From assembly GCA_024635925.1 (NCBI GenBank), contig JAGXHY010000014.1, positions 1-64,000 on the forward strand: DNA of 64,000 bases. Direction: 5' to 3'. The notes under the pieces are model-generated. The model ran no database searches. It was given only the letters and a program-made list of their open reading frames with translations, and was not told where the DNA came from. Position numbers and translations under genes: made by a program. This DNA comes from Bacillota bacterium (GTDB lineage Bacteria; Bacillota; TC1). Numbering within the stretch: position 1 is the stretch's first letter; each line of letters begins with the position of its first letter. Positions 23,628 through 42,072 of this stretch are shown here, piece after piece.

Positions 23628-24887
23628 ATGGATTTATTCGATCAAAATTTTAATGAGATGGAAAAAAGAAATGCGCCTTTAGCTGAGAGAATGAGGCCAA
23701 TAAAAATAGAAGATATTATTGGACAAGAACACCTGTTAAAGAAGAGTAAACCCTTATATGAGGCAATTACAAAAGATATGATTCCTTCTATGATTTTATA
23801 TGGCCCTCCAGGATCAGGAAAAACAACTATAGCTAGGGTAATTGCTAATGTATCTATTTCTAATTTTATTTCAATTAATGCTGTTATTGATGGTATACCT
23901 AAAATAAAAGAAGTGATTGAAGAGGCTAAAAATAATTTAAAGTTATATTCAAAGAGAACTATTTTATTTATTGATGAAATTCATAGATTTAACAAGAATC
24001 AACAAGATGCTTTATTGCCATTTTTAGAAAGTGGATTAATTATTTTAATAGGAGCTACCACTGAAAACCCATTTGTAGAGATAAATAAGGCTTTGATGTC
24101 AAGATTATTATTATTTAAGTTAAATCATATTAATAATGAGGATATAGAAAGTATAGTTAATAGAGCCTTAAATGATAAAATTAATGGATATGGAAATTAT
24201 TCTATAACTTTTGATGATAAAAACAAACTTCTAAAGTTTTTGATACATATTAGCAATGGTGATTTAAGAAAAACTTTAAATGCCTTAGAACAGTTAGTTA
24301 GTATAACTAAAATATCAGAAAATGGTAATATTAACCTTACATTTGAAAATGCACAAATGCTAATTAAAGAAAAAAGTTTACCGTATGATAAGGGTGGTTC
24401 AGAACATTATAATGTTGTATCAGCATTTATTAAAAGTATAAGAGGTTCTGATGTTAATGCTACTCTTCACTATCTAGCTAGAATGATAGAAGGTGGAGAA
24501 GACCCAATGTTTATTGCAAGACGTTTAATTATTCTTGCTAGTGAGGATATTGGACTTGCTGACTCTAATGCTTTAGTGATTGCTAATAGTTGTGCTCAAT
24601 CAATAATGCTTATTGGTATGCCAGAAGGAAGAATAATATTAGGACATGTAGCAATTTATCTTGCTAAAGCGCCCAAAAGCAATAGTGCTTATCTAGGAAT
24701 AAACTCCGCTATTTCAGACATTAATAATATCGAAATAGGTGTAGTACCTACACATTTATGTAATCCGAATGACGGATATATATATCCTCATGATTTCGAG
24801 GAAAAAGACTATATTGTGGATCAACAATATTTACCTAAATCAATAAAAGATAAAAAATATTATTATCAAAAAAAGTTTGATAAATAA
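23628..24887 (+). CDS. rarA: Replication-associated recombination protein A (MgsA/RarA AAA+ ATPase)
   Basis: 419 residues. Walker A GPPGSGKTT spans 59-67, Walker B is FIDEIHRFN, and the sensor region is IGATTENP, followed by the C-terminal tetramerisation region with GGEDPMFIARRLII and NSAYLGI. It acts at stalled replication forks with SSB. The N-terminal PLAERMRP segment is typical. It begins one base after aspS, the usual Firmicute hisS-aspS-rarA neighbourhood. Confidence 0.95.
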   Translation: MDLFDQNFNEMEKRNAPLAERMRPIKIEDIIGQEHLLKKSKPLYEAITKDMIPSMILYGPPGSGKTTIARVIANVSISNFISINAVIDGIPKIKEVIEEAKNNLKLYSKRTILFIDEIHRFNKNQQDALLPFLESGLIILIGATTENPFVEINKALMSRLLLFKLNHINNEDIESIVNRALNDKINGYGNYSITFDDKNKLLKFLIHISNGDLRKTLNALEQLVSITKISENGNINLTFENAQMLIKEKSLPYDKGGSEHYNVVSAFIKSIRGSDVNATLHYLARMIEGGEDPMFIARRLIILASEDIGLADSNALVIANSCAQSIMLIGMPEGRIILGHVAIYLAKAPKSNSAYLGINSAISDINNIEIGVVPTHLCNPNDGYIYPHDFEEKDYIVDQQYLPKSIKDKKYYYQKKFDK

Positions 24888-24907
24888 AAATTATATGGAG
24901 AAATATT

Positions 24908-25663
24908 ATGTTATTAACTAGTTGGAACGTAAATGGGCTTAGAGCAGCTTTAAAAAAAGGTTTTATGGATTTTCTTAATAGCAATAATCCAGATATTATT
25001 GCTCTACAAGAAATAAAAATGGAAAAAGGTCAAGCTGAAATAGATTTAGCACATTATGAAGAAATTTGGAATAGCGCCGAGAAAAAAGGATATTCAGGAA
25101 CTGCTGTTTTTTCAAAAAATACTCCAATAAATAAAAGCTTGGGCTTAGGAATTATAGAGCATGATAAAGAAGGAAGAGTTATAACTCTAGAATATGACAA
25201 ATTCTTTTTTGTTAATGTTTACACACCAAATTCAAAAGACAAACTTGCTAGAATTGATTATAGAGTTGAATGGGAAAATTCATTTAAAGATTATGTTCTA
25301 CAATTAGATAGTAAGAAACCTGTAATTATTTGCGGCGATTTAAACGTAGCTCATACTGAAATAGATTTAAAAAATCCTAAATCCAATAGAAAAAATGCAG
25401 GATTTTCTGACCAAGAAAGAAATAAATTTACAGAATTATTAGAATCAGGTTTCGTTGATAGTTTTAGGTATATTTATCCTGACGCCATAGAAAAGTATAC
25501 ATGGTGGTCATATAGATTTAATGCTAGAGCTAACAACGCAGGTTGGAGGATAGATTATTTTTTAGTTTCAGATAGAATAAAAAATTCAATAAAAGATTTT
25601 ATTATTCATGACCAAGTTTTTGGTAGTGATCATTGTCCTGTGTCTCTAATTATAGATATCTAA
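24908..25663 (+). CDS. exoA: Exodeoxyribonuclease III / AP endonuclease
   Basis: 251 residues, EEP (endonuclease/exonuclease/phosphatase) fold. Active-site blocks are SWNVNGLRA, LQEIKME (metal-binding Glu), YTPNS, GDLNVAH, WRIDYFLVS and SDHCPVS. It incises abasic sites in base excision repair. Length and motifs match Bacillus ExoA and E. coli Xth. A short GGAGAAATATT leader gives the ribosome binding site. Confidence 0.96.
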   Translation: MLLTSWNVNGLRAALKKGFMDFLNSNNPDIIALQEIKMEKGQAEIDLAHYEEIWNSAEKKGYSGTAVFSKNTPINKSLGLGIIEHDKEGRVITLEYDKFFFVNVYTPNSKDKLARIDYRVEWENSFKDYVLQLDSKKPVIICGDLNVAHTEIDLKNPKSNRKNAGFSDQERNKFTELLESGFVDSFRYIYPDAIEKYTWWSYRFNARANNAGWRIDYFLVSDRIKNSIKDFIIHDQVFGSDHCPVSLIIDI

Positions 25664-25684
25664 ATAAGTAAGAATTGGTGAAAT

Positions 25685-26593
25685 ATGGAAACTAACAGAA
25701 ATCGTCTAAAAGGATTTGCTTTAGTTATTTTAGCTACTTTGATTTATTCTGGTCAAAGTATAATTGCTCGTTCTGTTTTAATAGCTGGCTTCAGTCCATT
25801 AGTTTTATCTGCTATGAAATTAATTTCTGGCTTTGTGACATTAAGCATAATGATAATTATTTTCAAGAAAAAGTTGTTTTTTGATAAGAAAGATTTGTCA
25901 AAATGGTTAATATTTGCTATTTGTGGTGGTACATTTTTTGCATTAACTTTATCGTATTCTTTCAATTTATTAGGTGCCAGTCAAGGGGTTATCTATTTGT
26001 ATACTGCACCGGCTTTTACTGTGATTATTGCATATTTTTATTTAAAAGAAAAAATTACTAGAAGAAAACTTATTGCAGTTCTACTAGTATTAGCGGGAAC
26101 AGTAGCAGTAGCAGTAGGAGCACAAGGAAGTAGTTTTGAATTTAATTTCATCGGATTTTTATTTGGAATTGGTTCAGGAATAACTTATGGTATATTTAGT
26201 GTTATGGGCAAAAAACTAAGTGTAACTTATGATAGCTGGAATTTGAACTTCTTTTACATATTATTTGCTTCTTTGGCAATATCTCCTGTCATGTTTACAT
26301 TTGACTGGGGGACATTATTAACTACTGATTTAAATTTATTATTATGGGTTATTTTATATGGTTTCATGATTTATGGTTTAGGGAACTTCTTCTTTCTAAA
26401 AAGCATGAATTATTTAGAAGCAGGAGAAGTGATGATATTTTCTAATATGGAACCTTTGTTAGCAGTTATTTTAGCATCATTAATACTTGAAGAACGTCTA
26501 AGTTCATTACAAGTAGCCGGTTTTGTATCAATATTAGTAGCAATTTTTCTAATAGCAAAATCAGATTCAAACTATATCAAGTTAGAAGTATAA
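25685..26593 (+). CDS. EamA/DMT-superfamily transporter
   Basis: 302 residues with about ten hydrophobic helices arranged as two EamA repeats (about 9-140 and 155-295). Typical features are an early GFALVILATLIYSGQS helix and EPLLAVILASLILEE near the end. The family exports amino acids, nucleotide precursors or drugs; the substrate is not predictable here. It is the last + strand gene before the dif-like site and strand switch. Confidence 0.85.
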   Translation: METNRNRLKGFALVILATLIYSGQSIIARSVLIAGFSPLVLSAMKLISGFVTLSIMIIIFKKKLFFDKKDLSKWLIFAICGGTFFALTLSYSFNLLGASQGVIYLYTAPAFTVIIAYFYLKEKITRRKLIAVLLVLAGTVAVAVGAQGSSFEFNFIGFLFGIGSGITYGIFSVMGKKLSVTYDSWNLNFFYILFASLAISPVMFTFDWGTLLTTDLNLLLWVILYGFMIYGLGNFFFLKSMNYLEAGEVMIFSNMEPLLAVILASLILEERLSSLQVAGFVSILVAIFLIAKSDSNYIKLEV

Positions 26594-26630
26594 GTAAAAA
26601 ATTAAAACTTAGTAGATTAATTAATGTTTT

Positions 26631-26658
26631 GGTTTACATAATATATATTATCGGTTAT
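26631..26658. other. dif: Candidate chromosomal dif site (XerC/XerD recombination site, replication terminus)
   Basis: Two 11-bp arms flank a 6-bp centre: GGTTTACATAA (26631-26641), TATATA (26642-26647), TTATCGGTTAT (26648-26658). Read on the - strand, the XerD-side arm TTATGTAAAC is identical to the B. subtilis dif arm as I recall it, and the full 28 bp matches at 22 positions. It lies in the 106-bp gap between the last + strand gene and the first - strand gene, where dif is expected. A xerD gene is at 62101-63009. Known: dif resolves chromosome dimers. Inferred: function here. Confidence 0.75.
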
Positions 26659-26699
26659 TAATTAATTAAAGTATTTATAATTAAGCTGTTATTTATTAA

Positions 26700-27500
26700 T
26701 TAATCTTCTATTCTTATTTGTATTGAAGTAATGTAATTTTCAATATCACTCTCAACAAATTGATCAATAATATTAAAATTAAAAGTCTCTTTAGTTAAAT
26801 TTAATATTTTATGTTTATCATACATTTTATTTATTGTATTTGTAATACTGTCATATGGTCCTTTATGATATCCACATAGATATGACCCACCTGGAATAAT
26901 TGAACATATTTCAGACGATGATTCAATTTCATTTTTCACTACTACTTCTTCACAATTAGTATCTATTATGTATGCTCCAAAAGATTTAATATCATCACAA
27001 TATATTGCAATTGTTGGATAAAAATAAAATATATCAGATTTGTATAATTGTTCCTCTGATCCTATTGGCAGATATTTTCTATCATCAAAATTTCTTATTT
27101 CAAAATTTTCAAATTTAACTTTTGGTAATTCATCTTGAATAAAAGATATTTTTCGTTGTATGATGTTATCAATACGCATCAGATCATCCCATTTTTCATG
27201 TAGTATTTTTGATTGTTCTTTAAATTTATCAAGAACTAATTCTACTTTCCTAGCTTTCATATAGGAATCAATATTTTTAATAGAATAGTCTAATCTTCTG
27301 AGATATCGAATACTGGCTAGTTCATATAGTTGATTAAATAGATAATATCTATAACCAGTCTCTTCATCTCTTTTATTTGGAGAAAAGAGACCTATTGAAT
27401 CATAGTATCGTAATGTTTGTGTGTTAATATTAAATAAATCACTTAATTCACCTATAGAAAAATAATCTTTAAACATATGTAAATATTCCATCTCTTTCAT
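26700..27500 (-). CDS. MerR-family activator with GyrI-like ligand-binding domain
   Basis: 266 residues, BmrR-like layout. It has an N-terminal winged HTH (FSIGELSDLFNINTQTLRYYDSIGLFSPN, split here as the sensor helix and wing), a coiled-coil dimer helix (about 75-125) and a C-terminal effector domain with GGSYLCGYHKGPYDS, a GyrI/SoxS-type small-molecule pocket. It is the third gene of the amidohydrolase-BMP-merR unit, whose promoter has a MerR-type 19-bp spacer; autoregulation is inferred. The start is uncertain: ATG 27476 (MFKDYF) fits the family better, although no start has a strong ribosome binding site. Confidence 0.88.
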   Translation of the reverse strand: MKEMEYLHMFKDYFSIGELSDLFNINTQTLRYYDSIGLFSPNKRDEETGYRYYLFNQLYELASIRYLRRLDYSIKNIDSYMKARKVELVLDKFKEQSKILHEKWDDLMRIDNIIQRKISFIQDELPKVKFENFEIRNFDDRKYLPIGSEEQLYKSDIFYFYPTIAIYCDDIKSFGAYIIDTNCEEVVVKNEIESSSEICSIIPGGSYLCGYHKGPYDSITNTINKMYDKHKILNLTKETFNFNIIDQFVESDIENYITSIQIRIED

Positions 27501-27510
27501 AAAGTATTTA

Positions 27511-27549
27511 ATATAATGGGTGTGAGTTTTATACCCGCACCCATTATAT
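27511..27549 (-). repeat. Long inverted repeat between BMP gene and merR
   Basis: Arms ATATAATGGGTGTGAG (27511-27526) and CCCGCACCCATTATAT (27534-27549) give 12 continuous base pairs plus three more after one mismatch, with a 7-base loop. On the - strand it sits downstream of the BMP gene and 11 bases before merR. There is no T run on that side, so partial terminator, mRNA stabiliser or operator are all possible. Confidence 0.6.
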
Positions 27550-27590
27550 CATAATTTTTTAATAAGCTAATAAATAAGGAATTTATTATA

Positions 27591-28571
27591 TTATTTTATA
27601 AAGTTTAAAACATCAATTTCGCCAGAAACTATTTTGCCTTTAATCTCAGCCATCTTATCTTTAACATCATCTGGTACTTGAGATTCTAATATTGGACTAT
27701 ATGTAAAATCGATAATATCTTGCTTAACACCCATTAATTCAAATTCAGCTTCATAATTTCCATTTTGAATAGTTTCAACTGTTTGGAAGATTGCTTTAGA
27801 CATATCAGCTGGTGCACAAGCAATTAAAGTTTCATCAAATTTTTCATATTCAGCAAAGATTGAAGCAATTGAATATTTACCTTTTTCTTCAGCACCTAAA
27901 TATACACCTTGACTTGCTGCATTAGCATTGCCCATGAGAATATCTGCTCCTTGACCAATAAAAGTCAATGTTTGTTCTTTTGCTTGATTGACATCATCAG
28001 CACCAAGTATTGCTGTTAATACTTTCACATTAGGATTAATATATTTAGCTCCTGCTTCAAAACCTTTCATATCATTTGCAATAGGTGGAATGTTTAATCC
28101 CCCAACTCCACCAACAATATTTGTTTTAGTCATTAGAGCTGCGAATGCTCCTTTTAAGAAACCTGCTTGCTCATAGAAATTGCTTATAGACCCTACATTT
28201 TCATTATTTGTTACATCTGAACTTGTAACTATGAATATTGTATCAGGATATTCTGCTCCAACTGCTAATGCAGCATCAGAGAATTCAAATCCGTGACCAA
28301 TAACAATATCATTCCCATCTTTAGCATAGTCTCTTAGGACTCTTTCATAATCTGCAGGTGTAGTGTTTTCATTGACTGAAATTTTGGCACCTAATTCATC
28401 TTGGATCATAACTAAACCTGTGTAGGCTACTTGACTCCAACCACCATCCGTTTTAGCACCTGGTAAAGCCATGCCTACTTTCAGGTTGGATTTTTCTTTG
28501 ACTGCACTATCACAGCCAACTATGGCTATTGCCATAAATAAAGTTAATACTAATAATAATACTTTTTTCAT
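27591..28571 (-). CDS. BMP-family substrate-binding lipoprotein (purine nucleoside/nucleobase type)
   Basis: 326 residues from the ATG at 28571, chosen because AGGAGG lies 9 bases before it while an earlier ATG abuts that site. A lipoprotein signal peptide ends in the lipobox AIVGC (Cys20). The mature part has the BMP motifs KVGMALPG, GGWSQVAYTG, GHGFEFSDAA and GGLNIPPIANDMKGFEAG. Members bind nucleosides or related ligands for ABC uptake. No ABC permease or ATPase gene is nearby, so it must borrow one encoded elsewhere or act as a sensor. It lies between the amidohydrolase and MerR genes. Confidence 0.9.
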   Translation of the reverse strand: MKKVLLLVLTLFMAIAIVGCDSAVKEKSNLKVGMALPGAKTDGGWSQVAYTGLVMIQDELGAKISVNENTTPADYERVLRDYAKDGNDIVIGHGFEFSDAALAVGAEYPDTIFIVTSSDVTNNENVGSISNFYEQAGFLKGAFAALMTKTNIVGGVGGLNIPPIANDMKGFEAGAKYINPNVKVLTAILGADDVNQAKEQTLTFIGQGADILMGNANAASQGVYLGAEEKGKYSIASIFAEYEKFDETLIACAPADMSKAIFQTVETIQNGNYEAEFELMGVKQDIIDFTYSPILESQVPDDVKDKMAEIKGKIVSGEIDVLNFIK

Positions 28572-34484: not shown

Positions 34485-35708
34485 TTAATTATTAATTAAA
34501 GAAATTGCTTCAAAAGAATTATCAATAGCTATTTTTGAATAATAAAAACTTGTAGATCCTTGTAAATAGGCAATATAAGGTTCTCTAATTGGTGCATCTG
34601 CTGATAATTCTAATGAACTGCCAGAGATGAAAGAACCAGAAGCCATAATAACCTGACAGTTATATCCTGGCATATCCCATGGATATGGAACAGCCGAACT
34701 ATCAATAGGTGAAAATTTTTGTATTGTTTGAATAAATTTAATTAATTTATTTTTATTCTTAAAAGTGATACTTTGTATTATGTCTGTTCTCTTCTCGTCT
34801 ATTGTTGGTGAAATTTCAAATCCTAACTTTTCAAAAAGTAATCCTGCATAATGAACGCTAAGTAAGCATTCTTCGACAATTTTAGGAGCCATAAAAATAC
34901 CTTGAAACATCAAACGTAAGTCATTTGAGTTTTCACAACCAATTTCTTTTCCAATACCAGGAACTGTAAATTCGCAGCTAATCTTTTTAATTAATTTTTC
35001 TCTACCAACAATATAACCACCAGATAGAGCAATAGTTCCACCCGGATTTTTTATTAATGATCCTGCAATAATATCAGCTCCTACCTCTAAAGGTTCTTGC
35101 ATTTCAACGAATTCCCCGTAACAATTATCAACAAATATAATTATATCAGGATATTTAGCTTTAATAACTTTAGCTACTTCTTCTATCTCGGAAATTGTTA
35201 TAGATCTTCTTGTTGAATACCCTCTTGATCTTTGAATAATTACCATTTTATAGTTTTTAAATTTTTCGTCTTTTAGGATATCCATATTTATTTTACCTAA
35301 ACCTGTTAAGTCAATTTTATCATAATCTAACTTCAGTTTATTTATTAATCCATTTTCATCATTTAAAGATTTTTCCAAAGTATCATATAATTCTCCAGTT
35401 AAAGATATAATTTTATCACCATAGTCTAGTAAAGCTCTAAAAGCTGTATAAATAGTATGTGTACCTGAAGCAAAATTACTAGAAACTAAAGCATCTTCAC
35501 CTTTAAATATATTAGCATAAAGTAAATTAAGCTTCCTTCTTCCATAGTCATCATAGCCATAGCCAGTAGACCCTGTAAATGCTTCAGTAGTAATATTGCA
35601 TTCTAAAAAGGCATTTAAAACCTTTTCATGGTTAAATATTGAAATTACTGAATATTCTTTTCTAAAAATATTTAATTGTGCTGTAGCTTCCCTAACCAGA
35701 TTATTCAT
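34485..35708 (-). CDS. ynbB: Methionine gamma-lyase-family PLP protein (YnbB / 'aluminium resistance' family)
   Basis: 407 residues, fold-type I PLP enzyme of COG4100. Motifs are TGSTGYGYDDYGR, ASGTHTIYTAFRALL, the VDNCYGEF aspartate and the PLP lysine in GSLIKNPGGTIALSGGYIVG. The biochemical role of the family is poorly defined; cystathionine/methionine gamma-lyase-like chemistry is assumed from homology. It shares one base with leuA (TAATG), so it is translationally coupled to leuA and lies downstream of the leucine T-box. Confidence 0.9.
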   Translation of the reverse strand: MNNLVREATAQLNIFRKEYSVISIFNHEKVLNAFLECNITTEAFTGSTGYGYDDYGRRKLNLLYANIFKGEDALVSSNFASGTHTIYTAFRALLDYGDKIISLTGELYDTLEKSLNDENGLINKLKLDYDKIDLTGLGKINMDILKDEKFKNYKMVIIQRSRGYSTRRSITISEIEEVAKVIKAKYPDIIIFVDNCYGEFVEMQEPLEVGADIIAGSLIKNPGGTIALSGGYIVGREKLIKKISCEFTVPGIGKEIGCENSNDLRLMFQGIFMAPKIVEECLLSVHYAGLLFEKLGFEISPTIDEKRTDIIQSITFKNKNKLIKFIQTIQKFSPIDSSAVPYPWDMPGYNCQVIMASGSFISGSSLELSADAPIREPYIAYLQGSTSFYYSKIAIDNSFEAISLINN

Positions 35709-37396
35709 TAGGCCTTTTTACTCCGATTAATAGCACTAATTATAGCTTTTATTGGTGCAGAAGTAATGTTTGGGGATATGCCGACCCCAAAATATCTTTC
35801 TTTTGTATTTAAATTTTCAAGTTGCACATAAGTTATTGCCTGTGATTTATCCCCTTCTTCTCTTGCATGTTCATCATAAGAAGTAACTGTGTATTTACCT
35901 AAATTAAATTGTTCAATTGCATTTAAAAAAGCAGAAACAGGACCATTACCTATACCTGAGATATTCTTTTCTTCTCCATATATTTTTATTACGCCTTCTA
36001 AAGTAACAACAGAATCAGCATCTTCATTAGTTGAATCTTCATTAACTTTATATTTTATTAATTCTAAAAAGCCAGAAATATTAATATAATTATCTTCAAA
36101 TAATTTTAAAATATCCTCTTTTTTTAATTCAATTCCTTTGTCATCTGTATCTTTTTGGATAATTTTTGCTACTTCAGGATGCATATTTTTTGGTAATTTA
36201 AAACCGTATTCTTTTTCTAAAATAAAAGCTACACCACCTTTACCTGATTGACTATTTATTCGTATAACTGCTTCATATTTACATCCAACATCACTAGGGT
36301 CAATCGGAAGATAGGGAACTTCCCAAAAATCAACATTATTATCCGTTCTATATTTAAAACCTTTATTTATTGCATCTTGATGAGAACCACTAAAAGCTGT
36401 ATGAACCAAATCTCCAACATAAGGGTGTCTTGGATGAATAGGTAGACGTGTCACCTGTTGGAAAATATCTTTTATCTCCTCAACATCATAAAAGTCAAGT
36501 TCAGGATCAATTCCTTGTGAATAAAGATTTAAAGCAACTGTTAAAAGGTCTGTATTTCCTGTCCTTTCACCATTTCCAAATAAAGTACCTTCAACCCTAT
36601 CAGCTCCAGCAAGTAGTCCTAGTTCTGTTGCCGCAATACCTGTGCCTCTATCATTATGAGCGTGTAAACTTATTTGTATAACATCTCTATATTTTATATG
36701 ATTACAAAACCATTCAATTTGGTCAGCATAAATATTTGGAGTACTCATTTCTACAGTAGAAGGTAGGTTTATTATGGCTAAGTTCTCTTTTGAAGGTTGC
36801 CATACATCTAAAACTGCATTAGAAACCTCAACTGCATACTCAACCTCAGTTCCAGTAAAACTCTCAGGTGAATACTCAAGAACAACATTCATCCCTTCTT
36901 TTCTAGCTCCTTCAGCAAATTTCTTAACTAGAAGAGTTCCTTCAGTTGCTATTTTTTTTATTTCTTCTTTATTTTTATTGAATACAACTCTTCTTTGTAG
37001 CTCAGATGTTGAGTTATATACATGAACAATAGCATTTTTAACACCTTTTAGTGCTTCAAAGGTTTTAGCTATAAGATGTTCTCTAGCTTGAGTTAAAACT
37101 TGGATGCTAACATCATCTGGAATTAATTTTTCATCAACTAATTTTCTTAAAAAATTAAACTCTGTTTCTGAGGCTGAAGGAAAGCCAACTTCAATATTTT
37201 TAAATCCAATTTTAATTAACATTTTAAATAATAAAAGTTTTTCATCTATCCCCATAGGTATTGGTAAAGCTTGATTACCATCTCGTAAATCTACACTACA
37301 CCAAATAGGTGCTTTTGTAGTTATTTTTTCAGGCCAAGTTCTTTCTTTAAAATCAATTTTAATATAAGGTTTATATTTTTTGTAATTCATAGCCAT
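35708..37396 (-). CDS. leuA: 2-isopropylmalate synthase (long type)
   Basis: About 562 residues of the long, LeuA2-type synthase. The catalytic TIM barrel has CSVDLRDGNQAL (metal Asp, Arg) and SLHAHNDRGTG (metal His-x-His). The C-terminal LeuA regulatory domain senses leucine. It condenses 2-oxoisovalerate and acetyl-CoA. The open frame extends to 37438, but those codons form the T-box terminator; I place the start at ATG 37396 (MAMNYKKYKP), 11 bases after AAAGGAG, with 37390 and 37405 as alternatives. leuBCD are not in the window. Confidence 0.95.
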   Translation of the reverse strand: MAMNYKKYKPYIKIDFKERTWPEKITTKAPIWCSVDLRDGNQALPIPMGIDEKLLLFKMLIKIGFKNIEVGFPSASETEFNFLRKLVDEKLIPDDVSIQVLTQAREHLIAKTFEALKGVKNAIVHVYNSTSELQRRVVFNKNKEEIKKIATEGTLLVKKFAEGARKEGMNVVLEYSPESFTGTEVEYAVEVSNAVLDVWQPSKENLAIINLPSTVEMSTPNIYADQIEWFCNHIKYRDVIQISLHAHNDRGTGIAATELGLLAGADRVEGTLFGNGERTGNTDLLTVALNLYSQGIDPELDFYDVEEIKDIFQQVTRLPIHPRHPYVGDLVHTAFSGSHQDAINKGFKYRTDNNVDFWEVPYLPIDPSDVGCKYEAVIRINSQSGKGGVAFILEKEYGFKLPKNMHPEVAKIIQKDTDDKGIELKKEDILKLFEDNYINISGFLELIKYKVNEDSTNEDADSVVTLEGVIKIYGEEKNISGIGNGPVSAFLNAIEQFNLGKYTVTSYDEHAREEGDKSQAITYVQLENLNTKERYFGVGISPNITSAPIKAIISAINRSKKA

Positions 37397-37413
37397 GTTA
37401 AACATATCTCCTT

Positions 37414-37645
37414 TCATAAAAAAATCTTCCATCTCCACAATAGAGACGAAAGAATCGCGGTACCACTCTAATTCATATAATATGCCCTCAAATTCTATAA
37501 CGGGAACTCCCGGAAAACCTTAAATATACTTCAGGCCAACTATTCTGAGGTGAGTTCCTTAAATGTTTCTTGTTATTTTCCACCAAACAATAACTCTCTA
37601 TAAATCAACTATAAAAGTAGTAGTCCTCTTCATCATATTTCACCT
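37414..37645 (-). promoter_or_regulatory. Leucine T-box riboswitch of leuA-ynbB
   Basis: Reading the - strand, a ~230-nt leader contains Stem I elements (GAAGAGGAC, AGAGAG, GGTGGAAA), a candidate specifier CTC (Leu) at 37554-37552 within GAACTCACC, and the T-box AGAGTGGTACCGCG (37469-37456). Then comes a terminator: CGTCTCTA (37448-37441) with TGGAGATG (37437-37430), and T7 at 37424-37418. Uncharged tRNA-Leu should stabilise the antiterminator and switch on leuA. The specifier is by inspection, not folding. Confidence 0.9.
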
Positions 37646-37648
37646 AAA

Positions 37649-37677
37649 ATTTTAACATTTATTCAAACTAAATTCAA
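37649..37677 (-). promoter_or_regulatory. Promoter of the leuA T-box transcript
   Basis: - strand -35 TTGAAT (37677-37672), exactly 17 bp, then -10 TAAAAT (37654-37649). The -35 overlaps the stop codon of the preceding methyltransferase gene. A start near 37642 fits the beginning of Stem I of the T-box. Confidence 0.65.
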
Positions 37678-38321
37678 GTATTAATATTTATTTTCTTACT
37701 GATAATTCTATATACATCCCGACTTTTACCTAAAAATAATTTTTTAGCCCATAATGTACCAAAGTTTTTGATTTCATGTGGTTCTAGATTAGTACAACTT
37801 AAAATACTTAAATTTGCTTTTTTATATATTTCTTTCAATTCAGAAAGTAAATAATTTGAACTTAATTCTGGCAGTTGTCGTTTTTCTATTTCTACAGGTT
37901 CATGAATATTATTATAAGCAAATATAAAAATAAATTCTGCATCTACTTTTCCTAAGCGAGAAATTTTATTTAGTAGGACAGGCATATCTTTTACTGTTGC
38001 TTCTAATAGACTTCCCCAAGGGAAATTGATATATACTTTATCTGCTAACCCATTAAGTTCGTCACCCATATTTTCTATAGAAGTTATTATAAATATCAAA
38101 TTTTCTATTTTATTTTTACTTACTTTTTTACTGTAGTCATATAAGTTACTAGCTGTGGGTTCCACACCGATATATAATTTATCTGGATTGTTTTTAGCTA
38201 GATCATAAATAAATTTACCATTGCCAGTACCTAAATCAACATAAATATGCTTAAATTTATTTACTATATTATTTAATTCATTATATTCAATAATTTTTTT
38301 GTTAACTAAAATTTTTATCAA
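37674..38321 (-). CDS. 16S rRNA (adenine(1408)-N1)-methyltransferase homologue (NpmA/KamB family)
   Basis: 215 residues, class I SAM methyltransferase. It has the SAM motif YVDLGTGNGKFIYDL (Asp29), acidic IGVEPTASNL, and the family-specific INFPWGSLLEATV with Trp102 and TLWAKKLFLGK with Trp191. In NpmA the two equivalent tryptophans (W107, W197) hold the flipped A1408. Also shared are EIEKRQLPELSSNYLLS-like residues. Known members confer kanamycin/apramycin/neomycin resistance. It starts with TTG 38321, 9 bases after AAGGAG, overlapping the ykgJ-like gene by 20 bases. A TrmB-type tRNA methylase was considered but the FPWG motif argues against it. Confidence 0.85.
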   Translation of the reverse strand: MIKILVNKKIIEYNELNNIVNKFKHIYVDLGTGNGKFIYDLAKNNPDKLYIGVEPTASNLYDYSKKVSKNKIENLIFIITSIENMGDELNGLADKVYINFPWGSLLEATVKDMPVLLNKISRLGKVDAEFIFIFAYNNIHEPVEIEKRQLPELSSNYLLSELKEIYKKANLSILSCTNLEPHEIKNFGTLWAKKLFLGKSRDVYRIISKKININT

Positions 38322-38997
38322 GAAACTTATCTCCTTCTAAAAAAAGTTTTTCTATTATTACTTCTTTATCATAAACTTTGCTAGAGTCATATATTTCAAT
38401 TAAGTTTTCAACTAAATAAAATGATAATTTTGCTTTATCCTTACAATTTAAATAATTTAATTCACCATTATAAAAATAGTCAAAATCATAAAGTAGTACA
38501 TTTAATAAATTATTATAATATTTATCATTGAGTAATCCAGTATTTAGATTTTTTAATTTCTCATATTTTTCATGAAACAAATCAGCCATTGATAAATAGT
38601 CAATTCCGCTATCTTCTTTTATATAATCTAATAATCTATTAGCAATATTTTCTTTTAGACCTTTACAAAAATCAACATCTTGTAATATATATTCTTTATT
38701 AATTCTAGCTAAGGGAAACAGTCTACAACTTAATGGTCTACTATTGTGAATACTACATAACTTATCTATATTAAAAATACATAATCCTCTTCTGGCACTT
38801 TTTATTATTGGTCTATATAAACCATTTTCGGTATTCTCAAGAAAAATAATATATTTATCTATTATTTGTGTTGTTGTATTATCTAGTTTTTTAGATATTT
38901 TTAAGATATCAAATGGATTTAAAAAAATTTCCATATTCTCACAACAATGTGCTGTTTTTTGACAATCGAATTTAAATTCATTTATAATTTTATTCAA
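38302..38997 (-). CDS. YkgJ-family cysteine-cluster protein
   Basis: 231 residues. N-terminal cysteines at 12, 18 and 19 (DCQKTAHCC), then GLCIFNIDKLCSIHNSRPLSCRLFP and a further Cys in DVDFC, match the zinc/iron-chelating CxxxCxxCC family (PF03692). The biochemical role of the family is not established; metal binding or a link to rRNA/flagellin methylation has been suggested. It overlaps the start of the NpmA-like gene by 20 bases, so the two are cotranslated and may act together. AAGGAG precedes the ATG by 11 bases. Confidence 0.8.
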   Translation of the reverse strand: MNKIINEFKFDCQKTAHCCENMEIFLNPFDILKISKKLDNTTTQIIDKYIIFLENTENGLYRPIIKSARRGLCIFNIDKLCSIHNSRPLSCRLFPLARINKEYILQDVDFCKGLKENIANRLLDYIKEDSGIDYLSMADLFHEKYEKLKNLNTGLLNDKYYNNLLNVLLYDFDYFYNGELNYLNCKDKAKLSFYLVENLIEIYDSSKVYDKEVIIEKLFLEGDKFLDKNFS

Positions 38998-39014: not shown

Positions 39015-39698
39015 TTAAATTTTAATTGGAATTTGATTTTTAAGTTTTAAAACTCCAATTTCTTCAGAAGCCATATAAGCTAATATTTCAACCCCTTTAG
39101 AATGGGCTTCTTTTAGTTTATTGGCAAATTTTGGGTCATTTTCTATATTTGCTTTGAATATTTTTCCTGAAGGATGTTGAGCGACAAATATAATAATGGC
39201 ACGTTTCCCCTCATTTTTGAGCTTAATTAAATGTTCTAGATGTTTTAGACCACGAATTGTAGGTGCATCAGGAAATTGTAAATATTCATCTTTAATTAAA
39301 GTGACAGATTTAACTTCTATATATACTTCAGTATGTTTACTAATACAAAATATATCCATTCTTGTTCCAGTCATACTATATTCTCTAATTATATTTTTTG
39401 GATTAATTATTGTTTCAATATCACCACTTACTAAACTATTATAAACTGCTTCATTAGCAGATACAGAAATCAAATTCACCCATACACTATTATTTTTTAC
39501 ATAATGTAAAGTGTATTTTGTCTTTCTACTAGGATTATCACTTTTCTTTAATAAAACTTTTACACCAGGTATTAGTAGTTCTTGACAACGGCCAGTATTT
39601 GCTACATGAACATTTTCTAGTAAACTATCAATCATTACTTCTGCAATAAACCGGTTGCTTCTATTAAAAAAAATTCCTTCATACATATTAGTTTTCAT
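39015..39698 (-). CDS. sfsA: SfsA-family nuclease
   Basis: About 227 residues. Features are ANTGRCQELLIPG (OB-like N-terminal part), EVKSVTLIKD and FPDAPTIRGLKHLEHL, with the restriction-endonuclease-like Asp/Glu/Lys core, then AIIIFVAQHPSG. E. coli SfsA is named for sugar fermentation stimulation but has DNA/RNA nuclease features. I favour ATG 39698 (MKTNMYEG) because the family core begins at EGIFFNR; the frame is open to ATG 39722. No start has a strong ribosome binding site. It overlaps the ddl stop by 11 bases. Confidence 0.88.
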   Translation of the reverse strand: MKTNMYEGIFFNRSNRFIAEVMIDSLLENVHVANTGRCQELLIPGVKVLLKKSDNPSRKTKYTLHYVKNNSVWVNLISVSANEAVYNSLVSGDIETIINPKNIIREYSMTGTRMDIFCISKHTEVYIEVKSVTLIKDEYLQFPDAPTIRGLKHLEHLIKLKNEGKRAIIIFVAQHPSGKIFKANIENDPKFANKLKEAHSKGVEILAYMASEEIGVLKLKNQIPIKI

Positions 39699-40680
39699 GT
39701 ATATATTTTTCATATTTTTCAAAAGGAAATTCTTTTCCCAACGACATTTGAATAATATAGTGTGTTAGCTCATCAAAAGTAATACCAATATAAGCTGCTG
39801 CATCAGGTAATAGGCTCATCTCTGTGAAACCTGGAATTGTATTGATATCTATTAAATAAAGTTCATTACCTTTTACCATAAAATCAGCTCTAGCAAAACC
39901 TTTACAACCTAATACTTCATATATTTTTACTGCTAAGTTTTTAGCTCTATTTCTTACAGTATTTGGTAATCTAGCTGGAATTATATGTTCACACATACCT
40001 TTTGTATATTTTGCATCATAATCATAATAACCACTTACTGTAGTTATTTCCAATGTAGGTAATGGAAAAGCACGATCATTACCCAAGAGGCCAATGGTTA
40101 TCTCATCGCTTGGTGTAATCATTTTTTCTATCATTAATTCATCTTCTAAATTAAATCCGCCTCTAAAAGCATCCTCTAATTGTTTTTCATAAGGAATTTC
40201 CTTATTGTTTATATAATATATACCTAACGTTGAACCTTGAGATGGGGCTTTCACTAAAACTGGAAAACCAAAAGAATCTTCAATATTTTTAACTATTAGT
40301 TTTATTTCACTTTTTTTATAATCTTTTTTCTTTATTGTAAAAAAATCTGGGACTGGAATATTATGAGTTTTCATAATAGTTTGAGTATAAATTTTATTCA
40401 TACACAAAGAACTGCTCAAAACTTTACTTCCAGTATATGGAATATTTAATTGTTCAAGAAATCCTTGAATAGATCCATCTTCACCACCAAGTCCGTGTAA
40501 TGCAATAAAAACTGTATCAGGTCTAAAACTTTTTAATTCTAAATATAAATCATCATATTTAGGATCAATTTTTTTTACTTCATAGTCATTCCTTAATAAA
40601 CTATTATATATTGCAGTACCACTTTTGAGTGAAATTTCTCTTTCAGTTGAATTCCCTCCTAAGATAACTGATACTTTCAT
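39688..40680 (-). CDS. ddl: D-alanine--D-alanine ligase
   Basis: 330 residues, ATP-grasp ligase. Motifs are LGGNSTEREISL (N-terminal substrate residues), ALHGLGGEDGSIQG, KAPSQGSTLGIY (ATP grasp), RADFMV and DINTIPGFTEMSLLP (metal and second D-Ala site). It makes the D-Ala-D-Ala end of peptidoglycan precursors, so the organism has a cell wall. AGGAGAATATT precedes the ATG. The D-Ala-D-Lac versus D-Ala-D-Ala specificity residue was not resolved by alignment. Confidence 0.95.
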   Translation of the reverse strand: MKVSVILGGNSTEREISLKSGTAIYNSLLRNDYEVKKIDPKYDDLYLELKSFRPDTVFIALHGLGGEDGSIQGFLEQLNIPYTGSKVLSSSLCMNKIYTQTIMKTHNIPVPDFFTIKKKDYKKSEIKLIVKNIEDSFGFPVLVKAPSQGSTLGIYYINNKEIPYEKQLEDAFRGGFNLEDELMIEKMITPSDEITIGLLGNDRAFPLPTLEITTVSGYYDYDAKYTKGMCEHIIPARLPNTVRNRAKNLAVKIYEVLGCKGFARADFMVKGNELYLIDINTIPGFTEMSLLPDAAAYIGITFDELTHYIIQMSLGKEFPFEKYEKYIHEN

Positions 40681-40696
40681 AATATTCTCCTATCTT

Positions 40697-41221
40697 TTAA
40701 TGACATTCATAGATGTCATTGCCATTTAAATCATTAACTACTATAACTGGAAAATCTTCAACTTCTAATTTAAATATAGCTTCAGGCCCTAATTCAGGAA
40801 AAGCTACAACTGTAATTTTTTTTATTTTTGACCCCATAAGAGCACCTGCTCCACCAAGTGCTGCACAATAAATTGCACTATGTTCTATAAGAGACTCTTT
40901 TACTAATAATCCTCTTAATCCTTTTCCAATTAGAATGGCTACTCCTTGCTTTAAAATATCTGGTGTATATTTATCCATTCTATAACTTGTAGTGGGTCCA
41001 ATAGAGCCAACTACATTACCAGGTTTTGTTGGTGATGGTCCTGCATAATAAATTACAGCTCCATTTAAGTCAAAGGGTAATGGTAAATTATTATTAATCT
41101 TTTCTATTAATAATTTATGCGCTGAATCTCTAGCAGTATATATTACACCTGAAATAAATAGCTCATCACCTGATTTTAATTTTTTTAATTTTTCTTTATC
41201 AATTGGTGTATTTAATTTCAT
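40697..41221 (-). CDS. fumB: Class I fumarase / tartrate dehydratase, beta subunit
   Basis: 174 residues, Fe-S hydro-lyase C-terminal (beta) domain as a separate subunit. Typical blocks are KLKSGDELFISGVIYTARD, YYAGPSPTKPGNVVGSIGPTTSYRMD and the late GGAGAL and AFPELGPEA. It pairs with the alpha subunit encoded 8 bases upstream to interconvert fumarate and malate. L-tartrate dehydratase is the alternative, but the context and split form favour fumarase. The numbering FumA/FumB for subunits follows clostridial usage, not E. coli isozymes. Confidence 0.9.
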   Translation of the reverse strand: MKLNTPIDKEKLKKLKSGDELFISGVIYTARDSAHKLLIEKINNNLPLPFDLNGAVIYYAGPSPTKPGNVVGSIGPTTSYRMDKYTPDILKQGVAILIGKGLRGLLVKESLIEHSAIYCAALGGAGALMGSKIKKITVVAFPELGPEAIFKLEVEDFPVIVVNDLNGNDIYECH

Positions 41222-41229
41222 TTTTTCTC

Positions 41230-42072
41230 CTAAAATATAATTTTCTTATGTCGTATAACATGACAATTAATATTTATGGCAACGGGTAAGGAAGCAATAT
41301 GACATGGTTCCATAAGAATTGCTACATCAAACACACTTGTTTTACCACCAAAACCTTGTGGACCAATATTTAATGAATTTAATTTATTTTTTATATCAGT
41401 TTCAATAGCAGTTATACTGTTATCTACAGGAATATCAAGAATATCTTTAATCAAGGCACGCTTTGCTAATAGTGCAACGCCTTCAAAATTGCTCCCTATT
41501 CCAACACCAACGGTTATTGGTGGGCATGGGTTAGCTCCAGCATTCTTAACAGTTTGTACGACGAAATTTTTAATCCCTTCAAGGCCATCGCTGGGTGACA
41601 TCATTTTAAGTGCTGACATATTTTCACTACCTGCACCTTTTGCTAAAATAATGATATTAAAAATATCCCCTTTAAGAATATTTGTATGGATGATTGGTGG
41701 TAAATTATCACCTGTATTTATTCTTGAGATTGGATTACCAACAATTGATTTTCTTAAATAGCCTTCTTGATAGCCTAATCTTACTCCTTCAAATATTGCT
41801 TCATTTATATAACCACCCTCAATAACAACTTCTGTACCAATATTTAAAAAAACTACTGCTGTACCAGTGTCCTGGCAAATTGGAATCATGTTTTCCTGGG
41901 CAATAATTGCATTCTCTTTTAAATTTCTTAAAACCTTTTTACTAAGTTCATTATCTTCATTCTCTATAGCACTAACATATTTATTTAATAATTCTGAACT
42001 TGGAACACAATTTATTTCAATTATAGAATCTCTAATACTATTAATTATTTTATTATAACTTATTTTTTTCAT
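41230..42072 (-). CDS. fumA: Class I fumarase / tartrate dehydratase, alpha subunit
   Basis: 280 residues, Fe-S hydro-lyase N-terminal (alpha) part. Cluster cysteines are Cys66 in MIPICQDTGTA, one in NPCPPITVGVGIG and one in EPCHIASLPVAI; GSENMSALKMM is a family block. The oxygen-sensitive [4Fe-4S] fumarase is typical of anaerobes. AAAGGAATAAT lies before the ATG. With the beta subunit it forms a two-gene unit ending before ddl. Confidence 0.92.
   Translation of the reverse strand: MKKISYNKIINSIRDSIIEINCVPSSELLNKYVSAIENEDNELSKKVLRNLKENAIIAQENMIPICQDTGTAVVFLNIGTEVVIEGGYINEAIFEGVRLGYQEGYLRKSIVGNPISRINTGDNLPPIIHTNILKGDIFNIIILAKGAGSENMSALKMMSPSDGLEGIKNFVVQTVKNAGANPCPPITVGVGIGSNFEGVALLAKRALIKDILDIPVDNSITAIETDIKNKLNSLNIGPQGFGGKTSVFDVAILMEPCHIASLPVAININCHVIRHKKIIF

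Follow-up and report, generated by a model that had tools for sequence, protein, structure and literature searches.

The minus-strand ORF 37674-38321 of the window (the whole 64,000-nucleotide stretch of DNA analysed here, from a draft genome of 1.43 Mb and 94.85% completeness) appears, from the comparison of sequences and a predicted structure, to be a native chromosomal m1A1408 methyltransferase gene of the Kam (NpmA/KamB) family, a reading to which we assign a probability of roughly 0.8. The gene, called kam here, begins with a TTG start codon, comprises 215 codons (215 aa), and is located in the following arrangement:

35708-37438, minus strand: leuA, 3′ of its T-box leader
37439..37642, minus strand: T-box leader of leuA (RF00230, 127.1 bits), 31 nt past kam, marking the next transcription unit
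37674..38321, minus strand: predicted NpmA/KamB-family 16S rRNA (adenine-1408-N1) methyltransferase gene (kam), assigned by profile matches, tree, residues and structure comparison
38322..38340, minus strand: Shine-Dalgarno-like AGAAGGAGATAAG directly 5′ of the kam TTG, within the ykgJ coding sequence
38302..38997, minus strand: YkgJ-like gene (PF03692, CxxCxxCC), overlapping the kam start by 20 nt
39015..39722, minus strand: sfsA, probable-operon member 5′ of ykgJ and kam
39688..40680, minus strand: ddl, D-alanine--D-alanine ligase
40697..41221, minus strand: fumarase beta subunit (fumB)
41230..42072, minus strand: fumarase alpha subunit (fumA), probable operon start

The AAGGAGA-type ribosome-binding site of kam, AAGGAGATAA followed by TTG, recurs in the genomes G001, G002 and G004. 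Going 5′ from ykgJ, the intergenic gaps are 17 nt (to sfsA), −35 nt (ddl), 16 nt (fumB) and 8 nt (fumA), and a terminator-like hairpin is located just 5′ of fumA, at 42122-42091. Since these same-strand genes are tightly spaced and the T-box leuA unit follows 31 nt downstream, kam is most likely the terminal gene of a fumA-fumB-ddl-sfsA-ykgJ-kam operon. The first-pass annotation had described both the overlap with a ykgJ-like gene and the neighbouring sfsA, ddl and fumarase genes; all were recovered, the 20-nt overlap being with a PF03692 gene and the fumarase being encoded as alpha and beta subunits. The adjacent segment 42133-44142 carries an ispH-rpsA gene fusion (NF000907).

The kam protein matched the Pfam NpmA profile (PF24675) with 181.9 bits (cut-off 60, E 1.3e-53) over nearly its full length, residues 4-207 aligning to positions 2-211 of the 214 in the profile. 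With the NCBIfam models the scores were 143.6 bits for NpmA (6.6e-42), 110.2 for WarA, 86.6 for NpmB and 85.3 for KamB, all four lying under the strict cut-offs of these models (470 bits for NF000030, the NpmA sensu stricto model). The best solved relative by sequence was the NpmA crystal sequence (3mte, 2.6e-42), and the identity to characterised enzymes ranged between 25 and 39%. The close similarity to NpmA that had been noticed earlier was borne out by these Pfam, NCBIfam and crystal-sequence matches. The tRNA m7G46 methyltransferase TrmB, which shares the Rossmann SAM domain and a similar N-terminal half, was considered as the identity of the protein and rejected: TIGR00091 gave 50.6 bits (cut-off 112.65), the tree and the fold also spoke against it, and the window's genome contains a separate, true TrmB scoring above its cut-off.

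The SAM motif D29-G31-x-G33-x-G35 is intact in the kam protein. The motifs FPWG and LWAKKL contribute W102 and W191, which align with NpmA W107 and W197, and the two A1408-stacking tryptophans are thereby located where the first-pass annotation had placed them. In NpmA, A1408 is sandwiched by W107/W197, and the importance of the tryptophans and the roles of other residues are described in PMC4705659. R201 corresponds to NpmA R207, the base-flipping arginine of the beta6/7 linker. Among the 87 aligned family members (NpmA numbering), D30, G32, G34, P106, W107 and L110 are invariant (87/87), W197 occurs wherever a row reaches that position (85 of 85) and R207 in 81 of 87. W107, W197, R207, E146, R153 and E88 are conserved throughout the six proteins of the window's family. 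Compared with NpmA (acquired; PDB 3mte, 4ox9), to which it is 38.8% identical with the same fold (Z 30.2), the kam protein matches both tryptophans, R207, E146, R153 and E88, but it has Thr at S195, Lys at R200 and R205, and Glu at the ribose-binding D55. In addition, its beta2/3 linker is 4 residues shorter at the NpmA K70/K71 stretch (9 vs 13 residues), with three of the nine residues basic. The short segment is common to 25 of the 87 aligned rows and the Glu to 4 of 87, and the solved UncKam (PDB 7jlz, uncultured bacterium; 39.0% identity) has both. KamB, CacKam, Kmr and NpmB1 belong to the same family (fold Z 25-28) and have the paired tryptophans where the available sequence covers both, but they are 25-31% identical to the window kam and all four have a long beta2/3 linker.

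The AlphaFold model (36 window and locus sequences) had a pLDDT of 93.5 and a pTM of 0.91, the beta6/7 linker being among its weakest parts (pLDDT 74-77). Its 15 best structural matches were all A1408 methyltransferases (Z 22.1-30.2, rmsd 1.3-2.8, 184-213 residues), the next structural family was TrmB (Z 16.3), and a Foldseek search concurred with this ranking. The fold could have been kept while another RNA, for example a tRNA or another rRNA site, is modified. In favour of this are the position of the tRNA methylase TrmB as nearest outgroup, the shortened beta2/3 linker of the 30S-docking surface and the replacement of D55 by Glu. We consider it unlikely, because both A1408-stacking tryptophans and R207 are present in 6/6 family proteins, the window kam is flanked in the tree by characterised A1408 enzymes on more than one side, and UncKam, whose PDB title calls it an A1408 methyltransferase, shares the short linker and the Glu.

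The tree comprised 91 rows: eight genome-set proteins including that of the window, six reference fragments, four TrmB proteins and 73 of 80 loci from relatives (the collection is described below). Six of the seven loci left outside were duplicates of genomes already included and one was frameshifted, and four loci with internal stop codons were entered only as their longest open stretch. A phylogeny had been proposed earlier as a check of the assignment, and in it kam was not placed with TrmB, which split from the Kam family at 100/100; tree, key residues and fold agree on the membership in the m1A1408 family that the first-pass annotation had suggested. One group (100/97) unites the five proteins of the window's genus, and G005, the sixth family member, joins it weakly (84/62). 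UncKam differs from the window kam in being placed with WWE3/Patescibacteria genes, where it pairs with a WWE3 gene (100/100).

NpmA falls into an eight-row group (100/100) with rumen and gut Clostridia, a clade other than that of the window kam (AU p 0.0001). Forcing NpmA together with the window's family was 76.9 log-likelihood units worse (p-AU 0.000113), and the window's family was rejected as the direct ancestor of NpmA, the nearest relatives of which are rumen Clostridia genes. The earlier proposal of an ancestor-type reservoir, in the sense of an NpmA source, thus had to be dropped. Clinical NpmA has its closest kam genes, at 55-56% identity, in rumen Ruminococcus MAGs (L069:5735-7318 and L094:2291-4062); C. 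difficile is mentioned as a possible NpmA reservoir in PMC12340973. NpmB1 lies among Acidobacteriota (100/100), and since it is 84.8% identical to the chromosomal gene of L124, the Acidobacteriota lineage of L124 is the likely NpmB1 donor lineage. PMC9311965 regards NpmB as probably acquired from a soil bacterium. The Acidobacteriota loci L124, L122 and L098 share a conserved neighbourhood, aat / MATE / kam / mnmA.

As far as can be read from the sequences, kam is native to its lineage and under purifying selection, in line with the earlier view that it was not acquired. It was found in 6/6 examined genomes of the window's family, between ykgJ and leuA and in the same gene order. The series ispH-rpsA, fumA, fumB, ddl, sfsA, ykgJ, kam, leuA, metC-like is kept in the five relatives, except that the G004 contig starts inside ispH-rpsA, and that G004 leuA, G005 sfsA and G005 ykgJ each consist of two ORFs (in G005, loci L057 and L153, sfsA, ykgJ and rsmI are split across frames, possibly by sequencing error). 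The dN/dS of kam (Nei-Gojobori) was 0.14-0.23 in the five closer pairs, similar to sfsA (0.11-0.19) and lower than ykgJ (0.18-0.39). In pairs that include the distant G003 or G005 it was 0.26-0.52 at dS above 1, the values of 0.45-0.52, at saturated dS, speaking against the main reading.

Kam is rare in the sample of the phylum (8 of 398 genomes, six of them from the window's family) and was found in 0/4 order-mate genomes, where the ykgJ search, run without a positive control, was also blank. Together with the GC content of kam (0.244), which is below the window mean of 0.290, this could be taken for a recent acquisition of a resistance gene or for contamination of the MAG. Such an origin is very improbable, because the same locus occurs in six separately assembled genomes with protein identity falling to 38%, the neighbouring ykgJ has a still lower GC content (0.210), and the plasmid and phage searches gave no kam relative (the plasmid set gives NpmA itself no match either). 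In the order-mates G006, G007 and G008, the metC-like gene comes 45-59 nt after ddl (measured between aligned ends), and sfsA, ykgJ, kam and leuA are not located between them; in the order-mate G009 the contig stops after sfsA.

In the collection, which comprised 84,980 species genomes, 177 relatives were found, the best 80 of which were analysed as loci; a contig scan with the window protein as the sole query gave 0 relatives. In the neighbourhood ORF set the kam ORF was missing in five loci (L095, L104, L129, L130, L131), and that of L099 was entered manually. The best 80 of the 177 relatives come from Clostridia, Acidobacteriota, WWE3 and other Patescibacteria, Melainabacteria, Dojkabacteria and others, and most Kam genes are chromosomal genes of uncultured lineages. 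Enzymes of pan-aminoglycoside resistance have in them a broad chromosomal reservoir that is not flagged by strict resistance-gene models, the window protein having missed four curated cut-offs. One of these loci, L107, belongs to a segmented filamentous bacterium (Candidatus Arthromitus, turkey), where kam adjoins an AbgT transporter gene, and in a Dependentiae MAG fragments of a second kam copy (L075:8387-8637) were found about 2 kb downstream of the first.

The neighbourhoods of kam are lineage-specific, with truB or uppS in WWE3 and aat and mnmA in Acidobacteriota. In 3 of the 80 loci (L069, L094, L133) kam is adjoined on the same strand by rsmI (above cut-off), the gene of the 16S C1402 methyltransferase, which follows kam after 24 and 26 nt in L069 and L094. 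A count of seven relatives with rsmI beside kam was discarded as an artefact of chained clusters, since the direct search gave 3/80 and the others had been joined via DUF371. The neighbour in L099, which was not counted as RsmI, has an RsmI-like N half by BLAST alone (E 1.6e-10) and gave no Pfam or NCBIfam methylase match, and no RsmI was present within the 10.6-kb stretch of G415, which lies in or near the NpmA clade. Chance estimates for the RsmI adjacency were made post hoc, on the assumption that 30 or 40 lineages are independent and that a genome has 2,500 genes, and carry no conclusion. DUF371 (PF04027) genes were found directly beside kam or one small ORF off in 5 of the 80 loci:

L133:6528-7946, DUF371 gene near kam, DUF371 and RsmI being fused
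L099:4815-5999, DUF371 gene near kam
L087:7101-7526, DUF371 gene near kam
L101:1102-1527, DUF371 gene near kam
L072:6801-7070, DUF371 gene near kam

Each of these five genomes has one DUF371, and among 14 control genomes DUF371 occurred in archaea only; its protein is a possible partner in the modification of the decoding centre. The genomes of the window's family contain no DUF371, and the rsmI of the window's genome lies on another contig. The adjacency of RsmI and DUF371 in relatives, and not the window locus, hints that the wider family natively acts on the decoding centre, while for an rRNA-modifying role of the window gene itself this adjacency argues weakly. The normal rRNA-maturation role that had been suggested for the window kam is plausible, and the relatives that adjoin rsmI lend it indirect support.

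A search for 16S rRNA genes was successful in 3 of 12 genomes, one with kam (G005) and two lacking it (G006 and G008), and found none in the window's own genome. The canonical CGCCCGTCACACC is present in all three, with A at position 1408 (E. coli numbering). Concerning the 30S substrate, the A1408 target and an intrinsic resistance to kanamycin, neomycin and apramycin, we infer from the biochemistry of NpmA, KamB and CacKam, and the protein would most likely be active on its own 30S, giving intrinsic aminoglycoside resistance. In the proposed mechanism, kam would be translated from the TTG within ykgJ, and SAM would be bound through D29-G31-x-G33-x-G35. By analogy with the known enzymes, the protein would then dock on the assembled 30S subunit, where A1408 may be flipped out and held by W102 and W191 on its two sides, R201 contacting the phosphate and E141 being in a supporting position, and its N1 would be methylated. 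As kam is probably the last gene of the fumA-fumB-ddl-sfsA-ykgJ-kam unit, the ribosomes of the host are probably modified routinely.

The gene may be kept purely as self-protection against aminoglycosides of neighbours or of the host's own making and not for normal rRNA modification, a possibility that we place somewhat short of even odds. Every tested member of the Kam family named in the literature consulted (PMC4705659) is described as a resistance determinant, and a MATE efflux gene is found near the acidobacterial relatives. However, the locus contains no mobile element or resistance gene, its synteny is fixed in 6/6 genomes and some relatives adjoin rsmI. Moreover, each of the six family genomes has at most one gene of the DHQ-synthase family, thus no spare candidate for a 2-deoxy-scyllo-inosose synthase, and the host is therefore not an obvious producer of 2-DOS aminoglycosides.

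The fixed chromosomal kam points to a role of such enzymes, in some lineages, as ordinary modifiers of the ribosome. More tentatively, m1A1408 could be a routine, lineage-fixed modification of the decoding centre in several uncultured lineages, made by native Kam enzymes, some of them encoded beside RsmI/DUF371 genes, and NpmA (on the rumen Clostridia side) and NpmB (on the Acidobacteria side) could be escaped housekeeping members; we regard this wider proposal as possible rather than probable. The literature consulted treats A1408 methylation as a means of resistance in drug producers and pathogens, and a search, with most subscription papers outside it, found no publication in which native chromosomal Kam genes are described as serving routine modification. 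With a native kam fixed in a lineage and cultured organisms in a nearby clade, m1A1408 as a normal rRNA modification becomes testable; the cultured carriers of that clade include Acetivibrio alkalicellulosi DSM 17461, Anaerobacterium chartisolvens DSM 27016 and Herbivorax sp. ANBcel31.

Two further features of the window were observed. The segment 30907-33201 encodes a surface-type protein of 764 aa with a PKTG-like anchor at its end, which is found at the same place in four relatives. The GC skew changes sign within 24000-28000, the cumulative skew reaching its maximum near 26 kb, a pattern like that around a replication terminus.
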